58,915 bases of DNA from an uncultured Ruminococcus sp. (GTDB lineage Bacteria > Bacillota > Clostridia > Oscillospirales > Acutalibacteraceae). The notes beneath the pieces were generated by a model. The model was given only the letters and a program-made list of their open reading frames with translations. It was not told where the DNA came from and made no database searches. Where the stretch lies: positions 1-58,915 of the forward strand of contig CADCNI010000008.1 of the NCBI GenBank assembly GCA_902802795.1, read 5' to 3'. The number at the start of each line of letters is the position of its first letter. Within the stretch, counting starts at the first letter, position 1. The position numbers and the translations under genes were made by a program. Shown here one piece after another: positions 27,966-54,166 of this stretch.

Positions 27966-27989
27966 TTGCAAGAAAGGAGATATAGAATT

Positions 27990-29438
27990 GTGTTATTAAC
28001 CATCACCTATGAAGGCGAACATACGCAGGATTTGGGATTTCTGCTGCACAAGAACCCCGACAGGGCGCAGCAGTTTGCACTCAGCTACGGCAAAGCGTAT
28101 GTCTTTTACCCCGAGGTCAGCGACGAACGCACCACGGCGGCGCTGCTGCTCGATATCGATCCCATTGATCTGGCGCGCGGCAAGCTGGGCGGCAGCGAGG
28201 GCGGCTTGTTCGATTACGTCAACGACCGCCCCTACGCCTCCACGTCGTTCATGAGCAACGCCATTTCCCGCGTGTTCGGCACCGCCATGAAAGGGCGCTG
28301 CGACAAAAAGCAGCAGCTCGCCGACACGCCGCTCCCCCTCACCGCCACGCTCACGTCCCTCCGGACAGGGGACGACAAGGAATTGGCGGCGCAGCTTTTT
28401 GAACCGCTCGGCTACACTGTCAAAACGGAAACGACGCTTCTCGACAGCCGCTTTCCCGAATGGGGCGAGTCGCCCTACATTGATCTGACGATCAGCGGCA
28501 CCGTAAAACTGTCGGAACTGCTCAATCACCTGTATGTCCTGATTCCGGTCTTCGATATGCAGAAGCATTACTACATCGCGCCCGACGAAATTCAGAAGCT
28601 GCTCGACCACGGCGGCTATATGGCGGATGCGGGTGAAGATGAAGGTTCCACGCAGTCCAAAGGCTGGCTGGCGTCTCATCCGTATAAGGAAAAAATCGCC
28701 CGCCGTTATTTCAAAAACAAGCAGTCCTATGCCCGCAAGGCGATAGACATTTTGATGTCCGAACTGCCGGAGGCGCAAAGTGAGGAGGATGCGGGCGCGG
28801 CGGCAGAAGAAGCGGAAGCGCAGGAAAAGCGCGTGCCGCTGAATACTCAGCGTATGGAGGCGGTCAGAAACGCGGTGCTGGCGAGCGGCGCATCCTCTGT
28901 GATCGACCTCGGCTGCGGGGAATGCCGTTTGACGTCCCTGCTGCTGAGCGAACCGCAGATTCAGCGCATCACCGCCTGCGATGTTTCCGTGAGCGTGCTG
29001 GAAAAGGCGGCGAAGCGGCTGCGGCTGGATGACATGAATCCTTTCAAGCGCCGCAAGCTGACCCTGATGCAGGCGTCGCTCACCTACCGTGACAAGCGCT
29101 TTGAAGGCTTCGACTGCGCCTGCGTCATCGAAGTCATCGAGCATATCGAACCGACCCGCCTGCCCGCCTTTGAGCGGATATTGTTTGCCTTTGCCGCGCC
29201 GAAAACCGTGATTCTCACCACGCCCAACCGCGAATATAACGAAAATTACACGAATATGAAGCGCAACGGTCTGCGCCACGACGACCACCGATTTGAGTGG
29301 ACGCGGGAGGAATTCCGGACATGGGCGGCGCATATCTGCGAGCAATTCGGCTATACCTGCGTGTGCAGCGGCATTGGAGAAAACGATCCGGCGTTCGGTA
29401 CGCCGACACAGATGGGGGTGTTTACAAGAAATGGATAA
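27990..29438 (+). CDS. hen1: 3'-terminal RNA ribose 2'-O-methyltransferase Hen1
   Basis: A 482-residue two-domain enzyme. The N-terminal half (residues about 1-245) is the bacterial Hen1 ligase-activating domain (LLTITYEGEHTQDLGFLLHK, SNAISRVFG). After an acidic linker comes the SAM-dependent methyltransferase (about 275-482) with VIDLGCGECRL, the metal-binding EVIEHIEP motif and LTTPNREYN. It 2'-O-methylates the 3' end of a broken RNA before Pnkp seals it, making the repaired tRNA resistant to the same ribotoxin. The GTG at 27990 is supported by AAGGAG ten bases upstream. It overlaps pnkp by eight bases. Confidence 0.96.
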   Translation: MLLTITYEGEHTQDLGFLLHKNPDRAQQFALSYGKAYVFYPEVSDERTTAALLLDIDPIDLARGKLGGSEGGLFDYVNDRPYASTSFMSNAISRVFGTAMKGRCDKKQQLADTPLPLTATLTSLRTGDDKELAAQLFEPLGYTVKTETTLLDSRFPEWGESPYIDLTISGTVKLSELLNHLYVLIPVFDMQKHYYIAPDEIQKLLDHGGYMADAGEDEGSTQSKGWLASHPYKEKIARRYFKNKQSYARKAIDILMSELPEAQSEEDAGAAAEEAEAQEKRVPLNTQRMEAVRNAVLASGASSVIDLGCGECRLTSLLLSEPQIQRITACDVSVSVLEKAAKRLRLDDMNPFKRRKLTLMQASLTYRDKRFEGFDCACVIEVIEHIEPTRLPAFERILFAFAAPKTVILTTPNREYNENYTNMKRNGLRHDDHRFEWTREEFRTWAAHICEQFGYTCVCSGIGENDPAFGTPTQMGVFTRNG

Positions 29439-32028
29439 TGCGAAGTCTTCCACTTTTACCATAGAGGTTCCCGAACTCTGCGTAGTGGCGCTCATCGGCG
29501 GCACTTCGTCAGGCAAATCCAGCTTTGCCGCCAGGCACTTCCTGCCCACAGAGGTGCTGTCGTCCGACTTTTTCCGGGGCATGATTACCGACGACGAGAA
29601 CGACCAGAGCATTTCCGCCGACGCGTTTGATCTGCTGTATTGCGCGGCTAACAAGCGGCTGAACCACAAAAAGCTTACCGTCATCGACGCGACCAATTTG
29701 CAGCAGAGCGCCCGTCAGCAGGTGGTGGAACTCGCCAAAAATCAGAATGTCCACGCCGTCGCCATCGTGCTCAATCCTCCCGAAGAGGTCATGCTGGCGC
29801 GCAACAAGGCGCGTGCCGACCGGAACCTGCCGGAGCGGGTAATTCATCAGCACCGCAACGCGCTTCGCAAAAGCATTCGCGGACTCAAGAGGGAGGGCTT
29901 TCGGTTTGTGTATGTGCTGCACTCTGTGGAGCAGATCGAGAATGCCGAAATTGTGCGCACCAAGCTGTGGAACGACAAACGGGAGCTGCACGGTCCCTTC
30001 GATATCATCGGCGATATTCACGGCTGCTGTGACGAATTGGAAATGCTGCTCGACCAACTCGGCTATATCCGCACCGACGGCGTTTATCGCCATCCGGGCG
30101 GCAGACAGGCGGCGTTTTTGGGCGACTTCTGCGACAGAGGCAACCGCAACGCCGATGTGCTGCGGCTGGTCATGGATATGGTGAAAGACGGTTCCGCCAT
30201 CGCGGTTCCCGGTAATCACGATGTGAAGCTGCTGAAATATCTGCGGGGCAAAAATATTGCTATGACTCATGGCATTGACAAGACCATCGCCGAAATCGAG
30301 GCGCAGGGGGAGGATTTCAAGCAGGAGGTCGCTTCCTTTATCGACGGGCTGATCAGCCATTATGTGCTGGATGACGGCAGACTGGTCATTGCCCACGCGG
30401 GACTGAAAGAGGAATACATCGGTCGGGCGTCCGGCAAAGTGCGGGAATTCTGCCTCTATGGGGAAGTCACGGGTGAAACGGATGAATTCGGTCTGCCGGT
30501 GCGGCATAACTGGGCGGCGGATTACCGGGGACGCGCCACCGTGGTGTACGGACACATTGCGGGGGAGGAAGTCAGCTCGCTCAACCGCACGGTCTGCATT
30601 GACACGGGCTGCGTCTTCGGCGGCAAGCTGACAGCTTACCGCTACCCGGAAGGCGAAACCGTGAGCGTGGATGCAAAGGAAACCTATTACCAGCCCATCC
30701 GACCGCTGGAGAGGCAGGGCGCCGCTATTGACCGCGATATGGGGGACATCCTGACCGTCGGGGATTTCGGAAAGAAGCTGCACATCGAGACGCAGCTCAT
30801 GCCGTCGGTGGATATCCACGAAAATAACGCGGCGGCGGCGCTGGAAATCATGTCGCGCTTTGCCGCCGACCCGCACTGGCTGATTTATTTGCCGCCCACC
30901 ATGTCGCCTTGTGAGACAAGCGATTTGGACGGTTATCTCGAGCATCCCCTGCAGGCGTTCGCCTATTACGCCGACAGGGGCGTGCGGCATGTGGTCTGCG
31001 AGAAGAAGCACATGGGTTCCCGCTGCGTGATGGTCGCCTGCAAGGATGCGCAGACCGCGCGGGAACGCTTCGGCGTGACCGACGGCAGCACAGGCATGAT
31101 TTACACCCGCACAGGGCGGCGCTTCTTTGACGATGCCGCCACGGAAAACGCCATTCTTGACCGACTCCGGAAGGTGCTGACCGACACGCATTTCTGGCAG
31201 GACTTCGGCACCGACTGGGTCTGCCTCGATACCGAACTCATGCCGTGGAGCGAGAAGGCGCAGGCGCTGCTTCGCACCCAGTACGCGCCCACAGGTCGGG
31301 CGGGCGTTGGCAGTCTGTCCGCCGCGGTGCAGGCGCTGGAGTGTGCCTGCCGCCGGAATCATATGGCGTATGAGGTGGACGCTGGCGCGTCGGGGCAGAA
31401 TGTGGATATCAGCGACCTGCTGACGCGCTACACCGTAAAGCTCCGTGACATGGAAAAATATACGGTCGCCTATGGAGAATACTGCTGGCGGGTGGATTCG
31501 GCGGACGATCTGCGCATTGCCCCCTTCCACCTTCTCGCCTGCGAGGGAAAAGTGTTCAGCGATCAGCAACACGTCTGGCACATGGAAACCATCCGGCAAT
31601 ACCTCACGGGTAGCGACCCGCTTTTTATGGCGACGCCCTATCTCTGTGTCGATACCGCCGACGAGCAAAGCGTGCGGGAAGGGGTGGACTGGTGGCTGGC
31701 GCTGACCGGCAGCGGCGGCGAAGGTATGGTGGTCAAGCCGGATACCTTCATCGCCAAAGAAAACGGCAAACTGCTCCAGCCCGCCGTCAAGTGCCGCGGC
31801 AGCGAGTACCTGCGCATCATCTACGGCGCGGAGTACCTCGAACCGGAGCATTTGCAGCGTCTCAAAAAGCGTTCCCTCAAGCGCAAGCGCACCCTGGCGC
31901 TCAAGGAATTCTCCCTCGGCATGGAATCGCTTTCCCGTTTTGTTGACCGTGAACCGCTATACCGCGTCCACGAATGCGCCTTTGCCGTGCTCGCGCTGGA
32001 AAGCGAACCCGTAGACCCGAGACTGTAG
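29431..32028 (+). CDS. pnkp: Polynucleotide kinase-phosphatase-ligase Pnkp
   Basis: An 865-residue RNA end-healing and sealing enzyme, the size of the Clostridium thermocellum enzyme. Kinase domain: P-loop GGTSSGKSS (residues 23-31). Metallophosphatase: GDIHGCCDE (about 194), GDFCDRGNRN, GNHD and VIAHAG. C-terminal adenylyltransferase: EKKHMGSR (about 524-531, with the lysine nucleophile), later motifs EGMVVKP and QPAVKCRG. With Hen1 it repairs RNAs cut by ribotoxins. The ATG at 29431 overlaps the hen1 stop, so translation is coupled. Ends before a post-stop repeat and a terminator. Confidence 0.97.
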   Translation: MDNAKSSTFTIEVPELCVVALIGGTSSGKSSFAARHFLPTEVLSSDFFRGMITDDENDQSISADAFDLLYCAANKRLNHKKLTVIDATNLQQSARQQVVELAKNQNVHAVAIVLNPPEEVMLARNKARADRNLPERVIHQHRNALRKSIRGLKREGFRFVYVLHSVEQIENAEIVRTKLWNDKRELHGPFDIIGDIHGCCDELEMLLDQLGYIRTDGVYRHPGGRQAAFLGDFCDRGNRNADVLRLVMDMVKDGSAIAVPGNHDVKLLKYLRGKNIAMTHGIDKTIAEIEAQGEDFKQEVASFIDGLISHYVLDDGRLVIAHAGLKEEYIGRASGKVREFCLYGEVTGETDEFGLPVRHNWAADYRGRATVVYGHIAGEEVSSLNRTVCIDTGCVFGGKLTAYRYPEGETVSVDAKETYYQPIRPLERQGAAIDRDMGDILTVGDFGKKLHIETQLMPSVDIHENNAAAALEIMSRFAADPHWLIYLPPTMSPCETSDLDGYLEHPLQAFAYYADRGVRHVVCEKKHMGSRCVMVACKDAQTARERFGVTDGSTGMIYTRTGRRFFDDAATENAILDRLRKVLTDTHFWQDFGTDWVCLDTELMPWSEKAQALLRTQYAPTGRAGVGSLSAAVQALECACRRNHMAYEVDAGASGQNVDISDLLTRYTVKLRDMEKYTVAYGEYCWRVDSADDLRIAPFHLLACEGKVFSDQQHVWHMETIRQYLTGSDPLFMATPYLCVDTADEQSVREGVDWWLALTGSGGEGMVVKPDTFIAKENGKLLQPAVKCRGSEYLRIIYGAEYLEPEHLQRLKKRSLKRKRTLALKEFSLGMESLSRFVDREPLYRVHECAFAVLALESEPVDPRL

Positions 32029-34521: not shown

Positions 34522-34546
34522 CATTATGGAGCTATAGCAATCCAAA
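34349..34546. repeat. Perfect 16-bp inverted repeat matching MITE ends
   Basis: TTTGGATTGCTATAGC (34349-34364) is the exact reverse complement of 34531-34546, the left end of the MITE. It has right-end polarity, as if another element once ended here. Confidence 0.7.
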
Positions 34547-34694
34547 TAATCAGAGAGACAAAAGGAGGCGATGATGGTGAGTTCAGGGCAAGGCGGAGGA
34601 CGACGGTGGGCTGGCGCCCACCTAGGACGACAACGCAGCCATGTGCTCACCAGCGCGCCGAACTTGTCTTTTTGTTTGTTTGTGGATTGCTATA
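34533..34694 (+). mobile_element. MITE-like element, intact copy 2
   Basis: A 162-bp element bounded by TATAGCAATCC (34533) and GGATTGCTATA (ending 34694). The centre holds the perfect hairpin GGTGGGC-TGGC-GCCCACC, flanked by GGACGAC repeats, and an AAAAGGAGG sequence near the left end. It has no transposase. Terminal TA dinucleotides suggest a TA-targeting (IS630/Tc1-like) parent, by inference. With the ends nearby it fills the 310-base gap between 34521 and the first polysaccharide gene. Confidence 0.8.
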
Positions 34695-34741
34695 ACTGCC
34701 TATGCCGATATAGCGTGTCGTTTATGGTTGATAGAGAACCG

Positions 34742-34792
34742 TTTAATTTTGCTTGACTTTTTTTTATACGACTATTATAATGAACTAAGTAT
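34742..34792 (+). promoter_or_regulatory. EPS promoter P1
   Basis: TTGACT (34753-34758), a 17-base spacer, TATAAT (34776-34781), then GAACT-A-AGTAT. It is one of three 51-bp blocks aligned without gaps (P2 at 42384, P3 at 44333). It drives the first module, 34833-42086. Confidence 0.9.
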
Positions 34793-34832
34793 CATAGAGG
34801 GTTATTTTCCAGATTGAACAAGAGGTAGTACC

Positions 34833-35792
34833 GTGAAAAAAATAAAATTTGTGATTGTTTCTTCAAGGCAATTCAGTGGAGGCGCTATTGTGTTACATGC
34901 ATTATGCAAATACTTGGCGGAGGATGGATACGATGCTAAGATCATGCATTCTGATGTATTTATTTATAGACGTTTCCATAAAATCCAATTCTGGATTGAA
35001 TGGATCGCTTATTCTTTAAAAGATATTTTTAAGGAAATCGCTGTGAAACTGCTTGGAGAGAAGGGCAGAAAGTACGGTGAATTCTTTAAAGGATATTATG
35101 ATGAGAGTGTGAAAGGCTATAAAAAAACAAGATGGCCCTTTGTAGATAAAAACACAGTCGCGGTATATCCCGACATTGTTTTTGGAAATCCTTTGCGCTC
35201 GAAAAACGTAGTTCGTTGGCTGTTGTATTATAATCGGTTCACGAAATATGAGAGAGCATATGGAAAAAACGATATGTTTTTCGCTTATCGAAGTATTTTT
35301 AATGACGAGAAACGCAATCCGGAAAAACGATTGTTATGTTTGTCTTATTTTGATTTGGATTTATATAAAAGAACCAATTTCGGGGAAAGAAGCGGAACAT
35401 GCTACATTATCAGAAAGGGAAAGCAGCGATCGGATTTGCCTGTGTCATTTGATGGTGTCATTATTGATGATTTGCCGGAAGAGGAAAAAGTAAAAGTTTT
35501 TAACCAATCAAAATACTGTGTTTCCTACGATCCGCAGACTGCCTATTCGGATCTGGCCGCGCTGTGTGGCTGTATCTCGGTTATCGTTCCGGAACCGGGG
35601 AAAACGCGTGAGGATTACCGTAAGCAAGAGGATAAAAGCTATGGCGTGGCGTTTGGCTTTGCGCCTGATGAGATAGAATACGCGGAAAAGACCGCAGCGT
35701 ATCTTCCGGCGTATTTTACATCAATCAATGAAAACGGAAAAAAAGCAGCACGCGGGTTCGCGGAAGAATGCGAAACGTATTTTGGGATTTAG
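34833..35792 (+). CDS. Probable glycosyltransferase
   Basis: A 319-residue protein, first of the polysaccharide locus. The start IKFVIVSSRQFSGGAIVLHALCKYL reads as the beginning of a GT-B N-terminal Rossmann domain. The C-terminal part has KYCVSYDPQTAYSDLAALCG and SVIVPEPGKTREDY, resembling the donor-binding half of some polysaccharide transferases. No classical E-x7-E motif is seen, so the family is uncertain. GTG start with AGAGG upstream, about 45 bases after P1. The donor and acceptor are unknown. Confidence 0.65.
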   Translation: MKKIKFVIVSSRQFSGGAIVLHALCKYLAEDGYDAKIMHSDVFIYRRFHKIQFWIEWIAYSLKDIFKEIAVKLLGEKGRKYGEFFKGYYDESVKGYKKTRWPFVDKNTVAVYPDIVFGNPLRSKNVVRWLLYYNRFTKYERAYGKNDMFFAYRSIFNDEKRNPEKRLLCLSYFDLDLYKRTNFGERSGTCYIIRKGKQRSDLPVSFDGVIIDDLPEEEKVKVFNQSKYCVSYDPQTAYSDLAALCGCISVIVPEPGKTREDYRKQEDKSYGVAFGFAPDEIEYAEKTAAYLPAYFTSINENGKKAARGFAEECETYFGI

Positions 35793-35820
35793 TTTTGGAA
35801 AGATAGGGTGTGATCGCCGG

Positions 35821-37284
35821 ATGGACAAGGCGCAAAATCAATCGCTGAAAAAAAAGGTTTTTTCCGGATTATTCTGGACATTTGGAGAGCGAATCATTGC
35901 ACAGCTTATCAGCTTGATTGTTTCCTTAGTTCTGGCAAGATTGCTTTTGCCCAGTGACTATGGCGTGGTTTCACTTGTTTTAGTTTTTATTTCATTTGCG
36001 GATGTTTTTGTATCAAGCGGATTTGGCAATGCTTTGGTTCAAAAAAAAGACGCGGATAATCTGGACTTTTCTTCCGTCTTTTTTATTAATGTTGGTTTTT
36101 CCATTGTATTATACATTGTGATTTTCTTGTTTGCTCCGTTGATAGCTGATTTTTATCAGATGCCCCTGATAAAACCGGTAATTCGGGTGTTTGCACTAAG
36201 AATTATTGTTGCTGCGGTCAATACGATTCAACGCGCTTATGTTTCAAGGCATATGTTATTTAAGCGTTTTTTTTGGGCTACGCTGTTTGGCACGATAATA
36301 TCAGGAATTGTGGGAATTATGATGGCACGCAATGGATATGGAGTATGGGCTCTTGTGGCGCAATATCTCACGAATTCCTGCATTGATACCGTTGTGCTTT
36401 GGTTCACTGTAAAATGGCGTCCGGAACTTCGTTTCTCATGGAAAAGAGCGAGAGTCCTTTTATCGTTTGGCTGGAAGCTATTGGTATCTGCTTTGATTGA
36501 TACCGGATACAACGAGCTTCGCAGTTTAATCATTGGTAAATTGTACACGGCCGAAGATCTTGCCTTTTATGATCGGGGGGATAAGTTTCCAAAGCTGGTG
36601 GTTGTCAATGTTAATTCTTCCATCAGCGGAGTGCTTCTTCCGGCGATGTCCAAATCACAGGATAACAGGGAAAATGTGAAAAAAATGACAAGAAGAGCTA
36701 TACAGGTTTCTTCTTATGTGATATGGCCTCTTCTGATTGGATTAGCTGCGATTGCAACTCCTCTTACCAGATTACTTTTGACAGAAAAATGGCTTCCGTG
36801 TGTCCCTTATTTGAGAATTTTTTGTTTAACGTATGGCTTTTGGCCTATTCATACTTCCAATCTCCAGGCCATCAATGCCATGGGACGAAGCGATCTGTTT
36901 CTAAAGCTGGAAATCATTAAAAAAACAGCGGGCATAGTGGCTTTGCTCAGTACCTTGTGGATCGGACCTTTGGCTATGGCGGAAAGTCTGTTTGTATTGG
37001 GCATATTGAGTACAATTATTAATGCTTTTCCCAACAGAAAACTTTTGAATTATTCGTATCTGGAGCAGATAAAAGATATTTTGCCATCCTTATTAACGTC
37101 GTTATTGATGGCAGTATGTATTTATCCGATACAGTGGTTTTCATTCAGCGACCTGATAACAGTTGTTTTACAGATTACAGTCGGTTTTGCCGTGTATATG
37201 CTGTTGTCAATCATTACAAAGAATTCGTCTTTGCAGTATCTGTTAAAACTCTTACCAAAGGCTGGAAAAAGTCAAAAGGAGTAA
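35821..37284 (+). CDS. Polysaccharide flippase (Wzx-like) 1
   Basis: A 487-residue MOP-superfamily exporter with about 12-14 membrane helices. The N-terminus FSGLFWTFGERIIAQLISL and LARLLLPSDYGVVSLVLVF, then SSGFGNALVQKKDAD, are typical of the WzxC/RfbX (PST) group that flips lipid-linked repeat units. The ATG at 35821 is the first after the previous gene; the ribosome site is weak. It lies 28 bases after the first gene. A second flippase of another subgroup is at 54171, suggesting a composite locus. Confidence 0.92.
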   Translation: MDKAQNQSLKKKVFSGLFWTFGERIIAQLISLIVSLVLARLLLPSDYGVVSLVLVFISFADVFVSSGFGNALVQKKDADNLDFSSVFFINVGFSIVLYIVIFLFAPLIADFYQMPLIKPVIRVFALRIIVAAVNTIQRAYVSRHMLFKRFFWATLFGTIISGIVGIMMARNGYGVWALVAQYLTNSCIDTVVLWFTVKWRPELRFSWKRARVLLSFGWKLLVSALIDTGYNELRSLIIGKLYTAEDLAFYDRGDKFPKLVVVNVNSSISGVLLPAMSKSQDNRENVKKMTRRAIQVSSYVIWPLLIGLAAIATPLTRLLLTEKWLPCVPYLRIFCLTYGFWPIHTSNLQAINAMGRSDLFLKLEIIKKTAGIVALLSTLWIGPLAMAESLFVLGILSTIINAFPNRKLLNYSYLEQIKDILPSLLTSLLMAVCIYPIQWFSFSDLITVVLQITVGFAVYMLLSIITKNSSLQYLLKLLPKAGKSQKE

Positions 37285-37292
37285 AGTGAATC

Positions 37293-38531
37293 ATGAAAAA
37301 ATTAATGATTTTGGGTGGCTCAAGATATGTTATTCCAGTGATTGAGAAGGCACATGAATTGGGACTCTATGTTATTACCTGTGATTATCTTCCGGACAAC
37401 ATAGCACATAAATATTCCGATCAGTTTTGCAATATCTCAATTATTGAAAGGGAAAAAGTATTAAAAGCCGCGCAGGAGCTTGCTATCGACGGAATCATAT
37501 CGTTTGCGTGTGATCCAGGTGTTGTTACTGCGGCTTATGTGGCGGAACAAATGGGATTACCGTTTCAAGGCTCTTATGAGTCTGTGTCTATTTTGCAGGA
37601 TAAGGGGCTTTTTCGTAAATTTCTGGCGGATAACGGATTCAATGTTCCACATGCCAAAAGATATACAGATAAAAAAGAACCTTTCAATGACATTGGGTTC
37701 TTTACATGGCCGGTGATCGTTAAGCCGACAGATTCCGCAGGAAGCAAGGGCGTGACAAAAGTTGACAGTCCCGATGAACTGGCCAATGCCATTGACATCG
37801 CAATGGCAGGTGCACATAATAATGCCTTTATCATTGAGGATTTTCTGACATTCAAAGGTTATCACTCAAGCGCTGACCCATTTACAGTCGATGGTGAACT
37901 TCAATTTGTCACGTATTCCGATCAGCTCTTTGATAAGGAAGCGGAAAACGCATACACACCGGCACTGATTATCTGGCCGAGCACCATGGAGCGGAAAGAC
38001 CAGGATTATCTGACTTCTGAAACACAGAGACTGATGCATTTATTAAAAATGAAGACGGGCATTTATAATATTGAGTCCTGCGTTGGCAGTGACGGCAAAC
38101 CGTATCTGATGGAGGTGTCTCCCCGTGGAGGCGGATGCAAGATCGCTGAAATCCAGCAATTGGCTATGGGGGCAAGATTAATTGAGAATGAGATCAGAAG
38201 CGCGGTGGGATTGCCGCTGATTGATTTGAATTGGCATGAGAGCGACGGTTATTGGTGCGAGATGATTGTGCATGCAAGGCCGGGGCAGTCGGGCATCCTG
38301 AAAGAAATCATCATTGATGATGAGATCAGGGAAAAATACTTAAAGGTGGCAGATATCTCAGCGAAACCAGGGGATACCATTCTGCCGTTTACAGGGGCCA
38401 ATATGTCATTAGGCGATATCTTTTTGCGGTTTGACAACAGAGAAGAACTGGATCGTGTCGTGGGGGCTTCAAAGGAATGGCTTCACATCGTGCTGGAAGA
38501 CGGAGAATCAAACAGAGAATCAAACAGATAG
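37293..38531 (+). CDS. ATP-grasp ligase 1
   Basis: A 412-residue ATP-grasp enzyme of the carbamoyl-phosphate-synthase/PurK-like group. An N-terminal pre-ATP-grasp domain (LMILGGSRYVIPVIEKA, CDYLPDNIAHKYSD) is followed by the grasp domain with VIVKPTDSAGSKGV (residues about 147-160), IIEDFL and metal-binding LMEVSPRGGGCKIAE (about 273-287). Such ligases join a carboxylate to an amine or thiol. Its place next to DegT-type aminotransferases suggests that it acylates an amino sugar or makes an amino-acid-like substituent; the substrate is not evident. The C-terminus ends with a duplicated ESNR. Confidence 0.88.
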   Translation: MKKLMILGGSRYVIPVIEKAHELGLYVITCDYLPDNIAHKYSDQFCNISIIEREKVLKAAQELAIDGIISFACDPGVVTAAYVAEQMGLPFQGSYESVSILQDKGLFRKFLADNGFNVPHAKRYTDKKEPFNDIGFFTWPVIVKPTDSAGSKGVTKVDSPDELANAIDIAMAGAHNNAFIIEDFLTFKGYHSSADPFTVDGELQFVTYSDQLFDKEAENAYTPALIIWPSTMERKDQDYLTSETQRLMHLLKMKTGIYNIESCVGSDGKPYLMEVSPRGGGCKIAEIQQLAMGARLIENEIRSAVGLPLIDLNWHESDGYWCEMIVHARPGQSGILKEIIIDDEIREKYLKVADISAKPGDTILPFTGANMSLGDIFLRFDNREELDRVVGASKEWLHIVLEDGESNRESNR

Positions 38532-38632
38532 CGATGCAGGAGGCTTTTCAGAGGTATCCTGCGTGTCGATCAGCGTATAGCCGTGCTGTTGTTTTCGGTT
38601 CTTTTGGTTTGGCTGTTTGCTTGGATTGCTAT
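38527..38632 (+). mobile_element. Possible degenerate MITE relic
   Basis: The right side reads TTGGATTGCTAT (38621-38632), identical to the MITE end, and encodes the same VCLDCY peptide frame as other copies. The left side, GATAGCGATGC followed by AGGAGGC, only loosely matches. It fills the gap between the ATP-grasp and DegT-like genes. Confidence 0.4.
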
Positions 38633-38658
38633 CAATACAAAGATGGGTGGGATGCGTT

Positions 38659-39609
38659 ATGAAAGAAATTGGCGGATATATCGAGTACGAGTATCATCAC
38701 GGACCAATGCTGCATGAAAAGGCGATTAAGCTGAATTGTGGCAGACGGGCCTTTTCCTATCTGATCAGAAGCAGGGGTATCAGGAAAATCTGGATTCCCG
38801 CATTTACATGCGGATCGGTTATTGAACCCTGTCAAAAAGCGCACACAGCGTATGAACTGTACAATATCAACCTAGATTTTCTTCCGGATGATGCACGTAT
38901 TTCTCCGGACGATTGGGTGTATGTCATCAATTATTACGGTCAGGTTACAAATGATAAAATCGAAGAGCTCCGACAGCGTTTTCCCCATTTGATAGTTGAC
39001 AACACGCAGGCCTATTACCAGATGCCGGTGAAGGGTGTTGACACATTCTATACCTGTCGTAAGTTTTTTGGCGTTACTGACGGAGCGATTTTATATACGG
39101 ATGACAAGCTGGATGATGATTTTGAGACGGATGAATCCTATCAGAGAATGACATACATTCTTGGACGGTTTGAGAGAACCGCCTCGGAATTTTATGCGCT
39201 TTATGACAGAAATAATTCTGTTTTTAATGAGGAACCGATCAAAATAATGTCAAAATTAACAGAGAACATTCTCAGAGGAATTGATTATGACTTTGTTGAG
39301 AATACTCGGACCGCTAATTTTGTGTACCTGCATGAAAGATTGGGAAAACACAACAGATTAAATCTTGCCATACCCGAAGGAGCCTTTATGTATCCGTTGT
39401 ACGTGCCCAACGGCGAGATGATTCGGAAACATCTGATAGCCAACAAGATTTATATTCCTACACTTTGGCCGGATGTATTTGATTATTGTTCCCCTGACAG
39501 GCTTGAATATGACATGGCGAAACATATTTTGCCATTGCCGGTTGATCAAAGATATGGAAAAGAAGAAATGGATACGATTGTCAGGGAGATAATCCAATAT
39601 TTGAATTGA
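38659..39609 (+). CDS. DegT-fold PLP-type protein, divergent
   Basis: A 316-residue protein of the DegT/DnrJ/EryC1 aminotransferase fold, but shorter and divergent. Recognisable parts: NCGRRAFSYLIRSRGI at the start, WIPAFTCGSVIEPC, VYVINYYGQV, LIVDNTQAYY (aspartate that holds the PLP pyridine) and YTCRKFFGVTDGAILY, whose Lys would be the Schiff-base residue. Many usual C-terminal motifs are missing. It could transfer an amino group to a sugar nucleotide or a small acid. The start at 38659 follows GGTGGGA. Flanked by two ATP-grasp genes. Confidence 0.8.
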   Translation: MKEIGGYIEYEYHHGPMLHEKAIKLNCGRRAFSYLIRSRGIRKIWIPAFTCGSVIEPCQKAHTAYELYNINLDFLPDDARISPDDWVYVINYYGQVTNDKIEELRQRFPHLIVDNTQAYYQMPVKGVDTFYTCRKFFGVTDGAILYTDDKLDDDFETDESYQRMTYILGRFERTASEFYALYDRNNSVFNEEPIKIMSKLTENILRGIDYDFVENTRTANFVYLHERLGKHNRLNLAIPEGAFMYPLYVPNGEMIRKHLIANKIYIPTLWPDVFDYCSPDRLEYDMAKHILPLPVDQRYGKEEMDTIVREIIQYLN

Positions 39610-39683
39610 CAAAACAGGACGTAGTGCGGTGTGAGCGTCAATAAACGGAAGTCTATTTTTACTCAAAAGGAGAAAGAGCGTGT

Positions 39684-40967
39684 ATGAAGTCAAATGTATT
39701 AGTTTTCCCCGCAGGAGAAATCAACTCCGTCGAGCTGCATGACGCGTTGTCGAATAATGTGAATATCGAGGTTTTTGGCGCTTCATCCAAAGAAAGGCAT
39801 GGCTCTTATGTTTTTAAAAACTACCGTGGAGGACTGCCTTTGATAACGGACGATAGCTTTATTGCGGCATTGAATCAATTGATAAAAGAATGGCATATTG
39901 ATTTTATTTTTCCCACACATGATACGGTTTCCCTGTTTCTTGCAAAGAAGCAGAGTGAGATTCATGCAAAGGTGATAGTCGCTGATATTTACACGGCTGA
40001 GGTTTGCAGAAGCAAAAAAAAGACGTATCAATTATTTAAAGAATACGGCTTCTGCCCGGAACAATATGAAAATTTCAATCATCTGCCTTGTTTCATTAAG
40101 CCAGATGACGGGCAGGGTGCGGTTGGCGCAAAGATCATTCACTCGGCGCACGATATTCCTGAGAACTTTGATTTTGAGGAATATGTTATTATGGAATTAC
40201 TTCCAGGTGACGAAATGACCGTTGACTGCCTTACTGATTATCATGGAAATTTGTGTGCGGTTCTCCCTCGTAAAAGACTGCGATTATTCAGTGGAGTAAG
40301 TGTGGCGGGTGTAAACGTCAAGTGTGATGAAGAAGTGAAAGGCATTGCTGAGAGTATCAATTCCAGATTGAAGTTTTTTGGTCTGTGGTATTTTCAGATT
40401 AAAAGGGATTATAACGGGAAGTATAAACTGCTTGAAATATCTACACGATGTGCAGGAACAATGTGCCTCTCAAGGGCACGGGGAATCAATCTGCCTTTGT
40501 TGAGTGTATATACAGCGCAGGGGAAGGATATTTCAGTGTTTGAAAATCCCTATACGGTTGTGATGGACAGAACCCTTATCTCCCGGTATAAGATGGATTA
40601 TGACTATTCTACTGTTTACATTGATTATGATGATACCGTTGTAAGTGGTGAATATACTATTCCGTCTGTCATCCGATATTTGTATCAATGTAAGAATCAA
40701 CATAAGAAGATCATACTGATTACTCGCCATAACGAAGATCATGAAGATGAGTTATATCAGAGTTTATATCAGCATTGTATTTTTCCGGCCTTGTTTGATC
40801 AGATTATTTCTTTATCATTTAAACAAGAAAAGGTCGATTTTATTGACCCTTTAGGCGCAATATTTATTGATAATTCATTTGCCGAGAGAAAAAAAGTGTT
40901 TGATAAATATGCAATCCCGGTATTTGATGTCGAAGGGATTGAGGTATTATTGGACTGGAGAGAATAG
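39684..40967 (+). CDS. ATP-grasp ligase fused to HAD-like domain
   Basis: A 427-residue two-domain protein. Residues about 1-290 are ATP-grasp: LVFPAGEINSVELHDAL, FIFPTHDTVSLFLAKK, FIKPDDGQGAVGAKII (about 116-131), VIMELLPGDEMTVDCL, and KLLEISTRCAGTM for metal. Residues about 312-427 form a small HAD-like domain with VYIDYDDTVVSG (Asp-x-Asp nucleophile motif), ILITRHNEDH and AIFIDNSFAERKK. The fusion suggests one partner ligates and the other removes or makes a phosphorylated intermediate. GGAGAAAG precedes the ATG. Neighbours on both sides are DegT-type proteins. Confidence 0.85.
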   Translation: MKSNVLVFPAGEINSVELHDALSNNVNIEVFGASSKERHGSYVFKNYRGGLPLITDDSFIAALNQLIKEWHIDFIFPTHDTVSLFLAKKQSEIHAKVIVADIYTAEVCRSKKKTYQLFKEYGFCPEQYENFNHLPCFIKPDDGQGAVGAKIIHSAHDIPENFDFEEYVIMELLPGDEMTVDCLTDYHGNLCAVLPRKRLRLFSGVSVAGVNVKCDEEVKGIAESINSRLKFFGLWYFQIKRDYNGKYKLLEISTRCAGTMCLSRARGINLPLLSVYTAQGKDISVFENPYTVVMDRTLISRYKMDYDYSTVYIDYDDTVVSGEYTIPSVIRYLYQCKNQHKKIILITRHNEDHEDELYQSLYQHCIFPALFDQIISLSFKQEKVDFIDPLGAIFIDNSFAERKKVFDKYAIPVFDVEGIEVLLDWRE

Positions 40968-40979
40968 GGAGGATTCATA

Positions 40980-42086
40980 ATGAATCAGATTCTTGTGACA
41001 AAATCATCTATGCCGGACCTGAACGAGTATATGGAAGAAATCAGCTCAATGTGGGATACCCATTGGCTTACCAACATGGGGCCGAAGCATAAGAAATTTC
41101 AGGAAGAATTATGCTCCTATATGGGGGTTGAAAATATTGATCTGCTGACGAATGGTCACATGGCACTTGAATTGACTCTTCAGGCGCTTGATCTGCATGG
41201 GGAAGTGATTACGACGCCTTTTACTTTTGCGTCTACCACGCATGCGATCGTCAGAAATGGGTTGGAACCCGTCTTTTGCGATATTGATCCCTTTAATTAT
41301 ACTATGGATACGAAAAAACTTGAAACCCTTATTACGGACCGGACGTGTGCCATTATGCCGGTTCATGTTTACGGGAATATTTGCCATGTAGAGGAAATTG
41401 AACGTATCGCCCGTAAATATGAATTGAAGGTTATTTATGATGCGGCCCATACCTTTGGAGAAACATATAAAGGAAAGGGAATTGGCACTTTTGGCGATGC
41501 GTCCTGTTTTAGTTTTCATGCTACAAAAGTATTTAATACCATTGAAGGCGGCGCCGTATGCTTTAAAGATAAAAAGCTGGGGGAAGCACTGTATGAATTA
41601 AAGAATTTTGGCATTCATGGTCCGGAGGAAGTTAGTGCCGTTGGCGCTAATGCGAAAATGAACGAATTCTGTGCGGCAATGGGAATCTGCAATTTAAGAC
41701 ATCTGGATGAGGAAATTGAAAAGAGAAAGAAAGTGGTAGAAAGATATCGCGCACATCTTGAAGGGATTGAGGGATTGCGGCTGAATTCTATTGATCCGGA
41801 TGTAAAATATAATTATGCCTATTTTCCGGTGGTATTTGAAGAGAGGATTTTTGGATCCACCCGCTCAGAAGTATTTGATGCTTTGGCGGAACAGGGAATA
41901 GGCGCCAGAAAATATTTTTATCCGTTGACCAATACTTTTTCTGCTTTCCACGGCAAATATGATGTAATGAAGACGCCTGTGGCTCTATCTGTTTCAAAGC
42001 GTGTACTGACTCTTCCGTTATATGCCGATCTAGCATTTGAAGATGTTGACAGGATATGTGAGATTATTTTGAGTTGTAAGAAGTAA
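40980..42086 (+). CDS. DegT/DnrJ/EryC1/StrS sugar aminotransferase
   Basis: A 368-residue PLP-dependent aminotransferase, expected to aminate a keto-sugar nucleotide. Motifs: GVENIDLLTNGHMALEL, ITTPFTFASTTHAIV, VIYDAAHTFGETYKG (Asp for PLP), SFHATKVFNTIEGGA (Schiff-base Lys, residue about 184) and GANAKMNEFCAAMG. Length is normal. GGGAGG is upstream of the ATG and it starts 12 bases after the ATP-grasp/HAD gene. It is the last gene of module 1. Confidence 0.93.
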   Translation: MNQILVTKSSMPDLNEYMEEISSMWDTHWLTNMGPKHKKFQEELCSYMGVENIDLLTNGHMALELTLQALDLHGEVITTPFTFASTTHAIVRNGLEPVFCDIDPFNYTMDTKKLETLITDRTCAIMPVHVYGNICHVEEIERIARKYELKVIYDAAHTFGETYKGKGIGTFGDASCFSFHATKVFNTIEGGAVCFKDKKLGEALYELKNFGIHGPEEVSAVGANAKMNEFCAAMGICNLRHLDEEIEKRKKVVERYRAHLEGIEGLRLNSIDPDVKYNYAYFPVVFEERIFGSTRSEVFDALAEQGIGARKYFYPLTNTFSAFHGKYDVMKTPVALSVSKRVLTLPLYADLAFEDVDRICEIILSCKK

Positions 42087-42383
42087 TGCGGCGTTGTAAT
42101 TTGGGAGAGATATTAGTAGCGAAAAGGATTGGATGTCCAATTATTTAGCCGGCCATACAACATTCCGTTTTAATTTGTTGTTTGTGTCTAAGGAACCGAT
42201 TGCAGATATGCCGATTATAAGGATAGAAACGGTAGATTATTTAAATCGTAATATTTCCAATGACAAGTTATCAAAATGAAGCATTGGATCAAATCACTTC
42301 ACAAGAACTGCCGATTTTGGTCAAGAAAAATATCTGTACGTATAAAAAGTTTAAAAAATCATTTCAAATAAGAGGAAAATATG

Positions 42384-42434
42384 TTCAATTTAGCTTGACT
42401 TTTTTTAATACTACTATTATAATATACTAAGTAT
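42384..42434 (+). promoter_or_regulatory. EPS promoter P2
   Basis: TTGACT (42395-42400), a 17-base spacer, TATAAT (42418-42423), then the perfect palindrome ATACT-A-AGTAT. About 45 of 51 positions are identical to P1. Confidence 0.9.
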
Positions 42435-42807
42435 TTTGGCGTGTACTTGAATAATACGATGGTTATAAGAAGTATAGCCTCTTTTTTAACAAACGAATAT
42501 AGAATGTACTTGTTTTTCATATATAAACTGATCATTCGCAAATTTGAGTTGATACGTACAATATTCATCAGATTATTTCAATTCCAATTTCACTGGAATT
42601 ATGATGATGGAAAAATGGATGGGGATAATAACAAAGTGCTGGATGATTTTTTTTATTTTCTGTTTGCAGGAAATAGAAAAAAAGAGCATTACTCGATATA
42701 GATTTAATATGCCTCACGCTTTTTTGTGTGTTTGGACTACACTTAGCTGCTTTATTTTTTGGTTAAGATTTTTTGTTTTTTGCTTTTCCATCCACTATCC
42801 ACAACTT

Positions 42808-42893
42808 AAGCACTCCCCCAGTCAGCTACGCTGACAGCCCCCTCAAAGAGGGAGCCATTTTTCGCCTCCCTCTCTGAGGGAGGTGGCAATTCT
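42808..42893. repeat. Palindromic interspersed repeat
   Basis: CACTCCCCCAGTCAGCTACG, with the GTCAGC/GCTGAC hairpin, is followed by CCCTCAAAGAGGGAGCC and an inverted CCTCCCTCTCTGAGGGAGG. Similar CCCTC/GAGGG palindromic repeats are frequent between genes in gut Clostridia. Confidence 0.6.
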
Positions 42894-42957
42894 TGGTGCT
42901 GGTGAAAGCCAGAACGGAGTGGAAGAGATTGAAATATTTTAAGAAAGAAGAACGGAA

Positions 42958-44037
42958 ATGTCGAAAGCAAGAGTAGAACTTGATAATAAAACAATATTGG
43001 TAACCGGCAGCCCCGGGTTTATTGGAGCAAATCTGGTAATAAGATTGCTCACTGAGATGAAAAGTGGCACTGTAATATCTTTCGACTCGATGAATCATTA
43101 TTACGATCCCGCGCTTAAGGAATACAGGCTTAAATTAATTGAGAACGCAGCCAAGGATTCTCAGGTTACACATATGTTTATCCGTGGTAACCTTGCTGAT
43201 AAGGAACTAGTTGATGAAGTTTTTGAAAAGTATAGACCATCCATTGTGGTTAACCTGGCGGCTCAAGCGGGCGTCAGATATTCAATTGATCATCCACAGG
43301 AATATATTAATTCGAACATTATAGGTTTTTTCAATATTTTGGAGGCGTGCAGGTGGAATCCGGTGAAGCATCTTGTTTATGCATCTAGCAGTTCTGTCTA
43401 CGGTGGAAATGAGAAAGTGCCGTTTAGCACCGATGATAAGGTGGACAATCCCGTGTCACTTTATGCGGCTACAAAGAAGAGCAATGAGCTTCTTGCTTAT
43501 AGTTATAGTAAACTTTATAATATTCCGTCTACAGGACTACGCTTCTTTACGGTGTATGGTCCTGCCGGCAGACCGGACATGTTCTACTTCTCGGCTACAA
43601 AGAAATTGAGTGAAGGCGATAAGATAAAGATTTTCAACTATGGAAATTGCAAGAGAGATTTTACCTACATTGATGACATAGTTGAAGGAATAGTGAGAGT
43701 AATGAGTGGTGCTCCGGAAAAGAAGAACGGTGAAGATGGACTTCCCGTGCCCCCTTATTCTATCTACAACATCGGTGGAGGTCAGCCAGTGAATTTGCTG
43801 GAGTACGTATCGGTTTTACAAGAAGAATTGGTTAGGGCAAAAGTTCTTTCCACTGACTACAATTTTGAAGCCCACAGGGAATTGGTTGGCATGCAACCAG
43901 GTGACGTTCCCGTTACCTATGCGGACACCATTGCCCTGGAACGAGATTTTGGCTTTACGCCAACAACAGATATACGACATGGTCTCAGGGCCTTTGCCGA
44001 TTGGTACAAGAAATATTATGGAGTGGAAAATCAATAA
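42958..44037 (+). CDS. NAD-dependent epimerase, UDP-glucuronate 4-epimerase-like
   Basis: A 359-residue extended SDR sugar-nucleotide epimerase. The NAD loop is TGSPGFIGANL (residues about 16-26), then SFDSMNHYYDP, NLAAQAGVRYSIDHP, the catalytic SSSSVYGG and YAATKKSNE (YxxxK), and RFFTVYGPAGRPDMFYF. The AGVRYSI and GPxGRPDM motifs are those of UDP-glucuronate 4-epimerases, making UDP-galacturonate, but related activities are possible. The start follows AAGAAAGAAG. Stand-alone module 2 behind P2. Confidence 0.9.
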   Translation: MSKARVELDNKTILVTGSPGFIGANLVIRLLTEMKSGTVISFDSMNHYYDPALKEYRLKLIENAAKDSQVTHMFIRGNLADKELVDEVFEKYRPSIVVNLAAQAGVRYSIDHPQEYINSNIIGFFNILEACRWNPVKHLVYASSSSVYGGNEKVPFSTDDKVDNPVSLYAATKKSNELLAYSYSKLYNIPSTGLRFFTVYGPAGRPDMFYFSATKKLSEGDKIKIFNYGNCKRDFTYIDDIVEGIVRVMSGAPEKKNGEDGLPVPPYSIYNIGGGQPVNLLEYVSVLQEELVRAKVLSTDYNFEAHRELVGMQPGDVPVTYADTIALERDFGFTPTTDIRHGLRAFADWYKKYYGVENQ

Positions 44038-44575
44038 TAAGATAAGCCCTTTCTAGGATATAGATAAAGGCATCTTTCTCCGGATTCTTTGAAAGAGCCT
44101 GAAGGCTTAAAGGAACAACTTATATCCTTCTTGTGTTATTGTTGGCAGTGGTGAGAAAAGCAGTAGAACTATAAAATTGTTAGCAAGATTGTTACAACAA
44201 GGTGCAAAAAGGAAAGTATTGATTTTATTTTTCAACATAGCTAATGGATATGTGTGTTGTGCGAAGGTCTATATGAGAGATAGTGTATGTAGAAAGTATC
44301 GAAAAGTCGTTTTATTTGACAGTTAAATTATGTTGAATTTGGCTTGACTTTTATTTATAGTAATATTATAATGTACTAAGTATTTTTGTATGTGGTGTTT
44401 TCAGTATTGCTATAAAATATCACACAGTGAAGAATATTCAACTGAATGATACCATGTTTTTACTGTGAAATAGTTGTTTTGTATAGATAAATGATAATAA
44501 AAATAGATTTTTAACGAGCGTTAACCCTTATCATTGATTTAATGGTTATAAGCGAATAATTTGGAGGGGTTTATT
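44038..44575 (+). other. Module junction with promoter P3
   Basis: A 540-base gap. Around 44137-44320 a frame (VIVGSGEKSSRTIKLLARLL...) looks like gene relic. P3 lies at 44333-44383. TATTGCTATAAAAT at about 44406 resembles a MITE right end. No other gene is seen; the leader to the next gene is about 190 bases. Confidence 0.55.
44333..44383 (+). promoter_or_regulatory. EPS promoter P3
   Basis: TTGACT (44344-44349), a 17-base spacer, TATAAT (44367-44372), then GTACT-A-AGTAT. It aligns with P1 and P2 without gaps and drives module 3 (44576-57618). Confidence 0.9.
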
Positions 44576-54025: not shown

Positions 54026-54131
54026 TTACGTAATAAAAGGAGGCAACAGAGGTTGATGCAAATAAAGGACAACAAAGTCATGTTCCAACCTTTGTGCCGA
54101 ACTTGTCTTGGTATTTGTTGGGATTGCTATA
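54008..54131 (+). mobile_element. MITE-like element, diverged copy 3
   Basis: A 124-bp element with ends TATAGTAATCC (54008) and GGATTGCTATA (ending 54131). It shares AAAAGGAGGC, a GGACAACAAAG/GGACGACAACG segment and GCCGAACTTGTCTT with the 34.5-kb copy, but has lost the central GC hairpin. It overlaps the end of the acyltransferase gene. Confidence 0.75.
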
Positions 54132-54166
54132 AAATGAAAACAGCAAAAGATAGCGAGGAACAGTAA
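54056..54166 (+). CDS. Possible 36-residue Cys-rich peptide from the MITE
   Basis: An ATG preceded by GGAGG (about 14 bases) opens a frame with CRTCLGICWDCYK and ends just before the flippase gene. The equivalent stretch in other copies encodes RTCLFVCLDCY and AVCLDCY. It may only reflect conserved DNA; translation is not shown. Confidence 0.25.
   Translation: MQIKDNKVMFQPLCRTCLGICWDCYKMKTAKDSEEQ

Follow-up and report, generated by a model that had tools for sequence, protein, structure and literature searches.

A surface-polysaccharide island in the window (the whole 58,915-nucleotide stretch of DNA analysed here, from an uncultured Ruminococcus sp.) contains three closely similar blocks, P1, P2 and P3, which we regard, with somewhat more confidence than doubt, as paralogous copies of one strong sigma-A-type promoter that would have been multiplied inside a probably acquired island and would supply it with a common start signal. 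We propose that one strong sigma-A (sigma-70) promoter was duplicated locally, a course that we infer in preference to convergence, and that the three resulting paralogous copies would fire, with transcription predicted to start roughly 7 bp downstream of the -10 element, inside the tail element ACTAAGTAT. Started by signals of one kind and similar strength, the island genes would then be made in step, and the promoter copies would have been retained in the probably acquired polysaccharide island. The locus would be a clean natural case in which a cluster of this kind may be wired for joint expression through promoter copying. The arrangement is ordinary in kind and neat in form, and a surface-level literature search found no published report of a triplicated-promoter arrangement. 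Against this explanation stands the conservation of the spacer and the tail, which, should the copies be old, is higher than a plain promoter would require; furthermore, the genomes searched yielded no donor or intermediate of the block copies.

The blocks and the polysaccharide island

Table 1. Promoter blocks and genes of the island, in window coordinates
Feature	Position	Strand	Layout or content
P1 block	34741..34792	+	TTGACT 34753-34758, 17 bp, TATAAT 34776-34781, GA, ACTAAGTAT 34784-34792
Genes behind P1	34833..42086	+	319-aa ORF, flippase, two ATP-grasp, 330-aa ORF, DegT-type aminotransferase
P2 block	42383..42434	+	TTGACT 42395-42400, 17 bp, TATAAT 42418-42423, AT, ACTAAGTAT 42426-42434
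ORF directly behind P2	42441..42701	+	86 aa, no Pfam match; possible gene remnant
NAD-dependent sugar epimerase/dehydratase gene	42958..44037	+	523 bp after P2
P3 block	44332..44383	+	TTGACT 44344-44349, 17 bp, TATAAT 44367-44372, GT, ACTAAGTAT 44375-44383
Genes behind P3	44576..57618	+	glycosyltransferases, radical SAM, Wzy-like (weak match), FdtA-like, aminotransferase, acyltransferase, flippase-like (weak NCBIfam match), hexapeptide-repeat protein

The three blocks share one orientation and align without gaps over 51 bp, with 42 invariant columns and pairwise identities of 45, 44 and 44 of 51; an extra invariant G directly 5' of this stretch brings the block to 52 bp. Re-reading and alignment confirmed the three positions, the gap-free 51-bp alignment and the TTGACT-17-TATAAT layout given in a preliminary description of this DNA. 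In every block the hexamers fit the sigma-A type at 11 of 12 bases with a spacing of 17. Invariant columns make up 9/11 of the upstream stretch, 6/6 of the -35 element, 12/17 of the spacer and 6/6 of the -10 element, followed by 0/2 between the -10 element and the tail and 9/9 in the tail itself. The similarity between P2 and P3 extends over 62 bp (42376-42437 versus 44325-44386, 87%), and the match of P1 to either of them stops where the 52-bp block ends.

The island has an odd composition, its GC content being 37.2% over 34.5-57.65 kb versus 51.8% in the DNA before it, and its gene content, as judged from the predicted proteins, is that of a surface polysaccharide cluster. P1 is separated by 41 bp from the GTG (34833) of the 319-aa ORF, which like the 330-aa ORF behind the same block has no Pfam match, and P3 is followed at a distance of about 190 bp by a glycosyltransferase gene. 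The gene directly 5' of the island has orthologues at 65-82% identity in five genus genomes; by eye, their neighbours differ in four of the five, the fifth contig ending at that point. The first gene behind P1 was recovered from only one of 150 family genomes (our own) and from five of 398 phylum genomes, namely our own, three of one other family (47-50%) and one with a weak, short match; for the first gene behind P3, three of 299 genomes gave matches at E 1e-60 or better, these being our own, G550 (60%) and G556 (54%). Acquisition of the island is therefore probable. Of the five clear relatives of these two genes, four have readable upstream DNA (three of the P1 gene and that in G550; the G556 contig ends at the gene), and the block is absent near all four, the best upstream score there being 6.0-12.2 bits versus 61-62 for the blocks. 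In the relatives examined, the blocks are not tied to these two genes.

A 168-bp MITE-like element (34531-34698) with inverted ends ATAGCAATCC...GGATTGCTAT stops 43 bp before P1; the window holds a partial copy at 1092-1188 and a weak copy at 54068-54132, and about 400 kb of the genome's other contigs hold ten more full or partial matches. Adjacent Hen1 and Pnkp genes at 27966-32028 constitute a bacterial RNA-repair cassette.

Comparison with other promoters and genomes

When the flanking regions were shuffled, the best 51-bp match in 200 trials reached 33/51, versus 44-45 for the blocks, and the expected number of occurrences of the block search pattern was 0.00 (100 shuffled windows). For comparison we took 20 other TTGAC-N18-TATAAT promoters from a 458-kb sample of the same genome. 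These agree with one another at a mean of 23.1 of 51 columns (maximum 33) and with the blocks at a mean of 23.2 (maximum 33); over the 39 non-hexamer columns the blocks are identical at 32-33, versus a mean of 11.4 (maximum 21) among the 20. Exact TTGAC-N18-TATAAT sites number six in the window, and the three inside the island are P1, P2 and P3. With consensus sigma-A promoters the blocks share the -35 element, the 17-bp spacer, the -10 element and an A/T-rich upstream stretch; they differ in additionally sharing spacer, upstream and start-site sequence among themselves and in a -35 element that ends in T, where 17 of the 20 sampled promoters have TTGACA. The exact tail is found in none of the 20, the best two matching 7 and 6 of its 9 positions. 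Because identities of 44-45 of 51 lie beyond the maximum of 33 in both the shuffles and the other promoters, we read the blocks, from their sequences, as copies or as strongly co-selected rather than as three independent consensus promoters.

In the genomes searched the blocks are restricted to this locus. Their own genome (2.82 Mb in 99 contigs, 98% complete) holds three matches at three or fewer mismatches, all in the polysaccharide locus, and the stricter search pattern hit none of the 397 other family genomes (398 scanned, including our own) and one of the 298 other phylum genomes (299 scanned, including our own); this site, in G414, has 3 mismatches and precedes a gene start that by eye resembles ribosomal protein L31. 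The viral contigs scanned gave no match. The preliminary description had named wide occurrence before unrelated housekeeping genes as what would speak against a special role for the block. In its own genome no such use was seen, since all three matches lie at the locus and the exact tail is missing from all 20 other promoters; the proposed conserved unit is likewise borne out by the confinement of matches at three or fewer mismatches to the polysaccharide locus.

Wide use of the element elsewhere was also rejected. An exact scan for TTGAC-N18-TATAAT-NN-ACTNAGTAT in a collection of species genomes, which may omit the record of our own genome, returned 22 loci, which on a rough estimate is about the number that could come by chance. 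Such look-alikes occur in many named genomes, mostly of Clostridia and Oscillospiraceae, the best 51-column score among the 22 is 28 bits versus 61-62 for the blocks, and the ORFs downstream, which by eye include leucyl-tRNA synthetase, DegV, phosphoglucomutase (twice) and RnfC, are assorted, three of the loci having no listed downstream ORF. The closest look-alike among the fetched loci, GCTTGACTTTTTTTTATATATAGTGTATAATATACTTAGTAT on a Paceibacterota contig (L040:5940-5979, 28 bits), is probably due to chance.

A more permissive pattern, allowing 3 mismatches in 21 positions, matched in 11 of 18 genus genomes including our own, the other ten carrying 2 or 3 mismatches, and gave two further sites in our genome, on contigs C1 and C84. 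The C1 site precedes the gene of a 720-aa Wzc/CpsCD-like tyrosine kinase, and the protein behind the kinase weakly matches Cps4B; the C84 site precedes, by eye, a Phd-like antitoxin gene. Relatives of the Wzc-like gene are present in all nine genus genomes asked, and the closest, in G014, G001, G010 and G011, have TTGACA promoters with unrelated tails, the -10 element being TATAAT in three and TATACT in one. The tail is absent at these four relatives. Both sites were dropped as chance rather than kept as regulon members in trans. The kinase and the weakly Cps4B-like protein (L070:1813-4729, contig C1) are distant from the island, and neither turned up among its scanned ORFs.

The start-site tail as a candidate operator

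The 9-bp tail is the sole fully conserved part of the blocks beyond an ordinary promoter, and its role may lie in tuning initiation or promoter escape, or in the binding of a factor. Its nine invariant columns overlap the expected start, which would suit an operator: a repressor or activator binding ACTAAGTAT at all three promoters would switch the island as a small regulon. We hold this to be unlikely. Full conservation of the tail has a probability of 0.07 given the conservation in the other non-hexamer columns. The arms around the A of ACTAAGTAT measure 3 (P1), 5 (P2) and 4 (P3) bases, so that ATACT-A-AGTAT is perfect in P2 and imperfect in P1 and P3, as previously described; however, this dyad does not exceed shuffles, which equalled the best palindrome length per 57-bp stretch in 636 (P1), 348 (P2) and 782 (P3) of 1000 cases, and conservation is complete only in its right half, with variation at the two outermost positions of the left. 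Odd palindromes with arms of at least 3 lie behind the -10 element in 5 of the 20 other promoters, two of these having arms of 5 or 6; this frequency mildly favours the palindrome reading, a point weakened by the fact that the three copies are not independent.

In the 458-kb sample, TACTNAGTA is confined to P2 and P3, which can be counted both for and against an operator. ACTAAGTAT itself has four occurrences there, of which the blocks account for three; with counts of 0, 0, 5 and 6 for four shuffled words, tail rarity was dropped as an argument. Among 20 island ORFs, four of which have no Pfam match of any kind, none was recognisable as a DNA-binding regulator or a recombinase, and the best extra genomic site, that at the Wzc-like gene, is not kept at the relatives in four genus genomes. 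The dedicated repressor suggested earlier has the mild palindrome frequency in its favour and is otherwise not supported, given that the 20 scanned ORFs include no recognised regulator and given the dyad statistics and the distribution of TACTNAGTA. We consider it unlikely that the locus forms a private regulon. In such a regulon ACTAAGTAT would be a new type of shared control, recognised by a factor or, as initiation proceeds, by RNA polymerase itself; copied along with the promoter, it would have placed polysaccharide genes that were newly acquired under a single switch. If the tail is truly a control element, it would offer a handle on the switching of such clusters in a poorly studied group.

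Recombination and transcription units

The preliminary description had alternatively seen in the blocks a recombination point, that is, sites of module exchange or inversion, a reading that is disfavoured and, in our estimate, very unlikely. The similarity has sharp edges within unrelated flanks, possible gene remnants may stand before P2 and P3, and two inverted-repeat pairs surround P2, one of 12 nt at 92% (202 nt between) and one of 17 nt at 82% (280 nt between). However, no inverted repeats were found flanking P1 or P3, and when the P2 flanks were shuffled, 27 of 60 trials produced a pair of 12 nt with no more than one mismatch within 250 bp. All blocks are oriented alike, no recombinase family was detected among 50 scanned window proteins (a subset of the ORFs), and the block is missing near the four readable relatives of the leading genes of the P1 and P3 modules. 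Moreover, homologous recombination works poorly on a stretch of only 51 bp at 87% identity. The invertible promoters of Bacteroidales capsule loci resemble the present case in that several similar promoters serve surface polysaccharides, but the blocks differ from them in their common orientation, in having no convincing flanking inverted repeats and in the lack of a recombinase among the scanned proteins. That three independent consensus promoters became alike through chance or convergence is extremely improbable and largely refuted, for although the hexamers and the 17-bp spacing are ordinary and looser look-alikes occur in many named genomes, the blocks match one another in their upstream, spacer and tail columns far better than the 20 other promoters of the genome do.

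Two observations on termination also count against the main reading, that of locally copied promoters. No terminator-like site was found on the + strand just before P2 or P3 (42087-42383 and 44038-44331), and the blocks may therefore not open separate transcripts. Between P2 and the epimerase gene there is one terminator-like site, at 42840-42852, which could stop P2 transcripts before that gene, so that the stretch served by P2 may be no more than a short and perhaps decayed one. The earlier notion of three module starts needs qualification at P2, which opens no clear module: behind it come the 86-aa ORF, a repeat with a terminator-like hairpin and then the epimerase gene.

Long polysaccharide operons are elsewhere expressed coordinately by LoaP/RfaH-type NusG paralogues acting with a conserved 5' element. 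In the present island what is conserved is the promoter and not a leader RNA; the similarity of the blocks ends at or just 3' of the block, and none of the 20 scanned island ORFs matched the NusG family. Near the blocks Rfam likewise gave no match at curated thresholds, a single chance-level RNA-family match falling at 40170-40245 (E 2.4).

The A/T-rich stretches before P2 (42087-42383) and P3 (44038-44331) carry open frames resembling gene remnants, at 42100-42276 and 44111-44323; neither has a Pfam match, the second reaching FMN_red at E 0.14. The terminator-like site behind P2 lies in a hairpin-rich repeat of about 98 bp (window 42792-42889), which recurs at six further sites in the part of the genome sampled.
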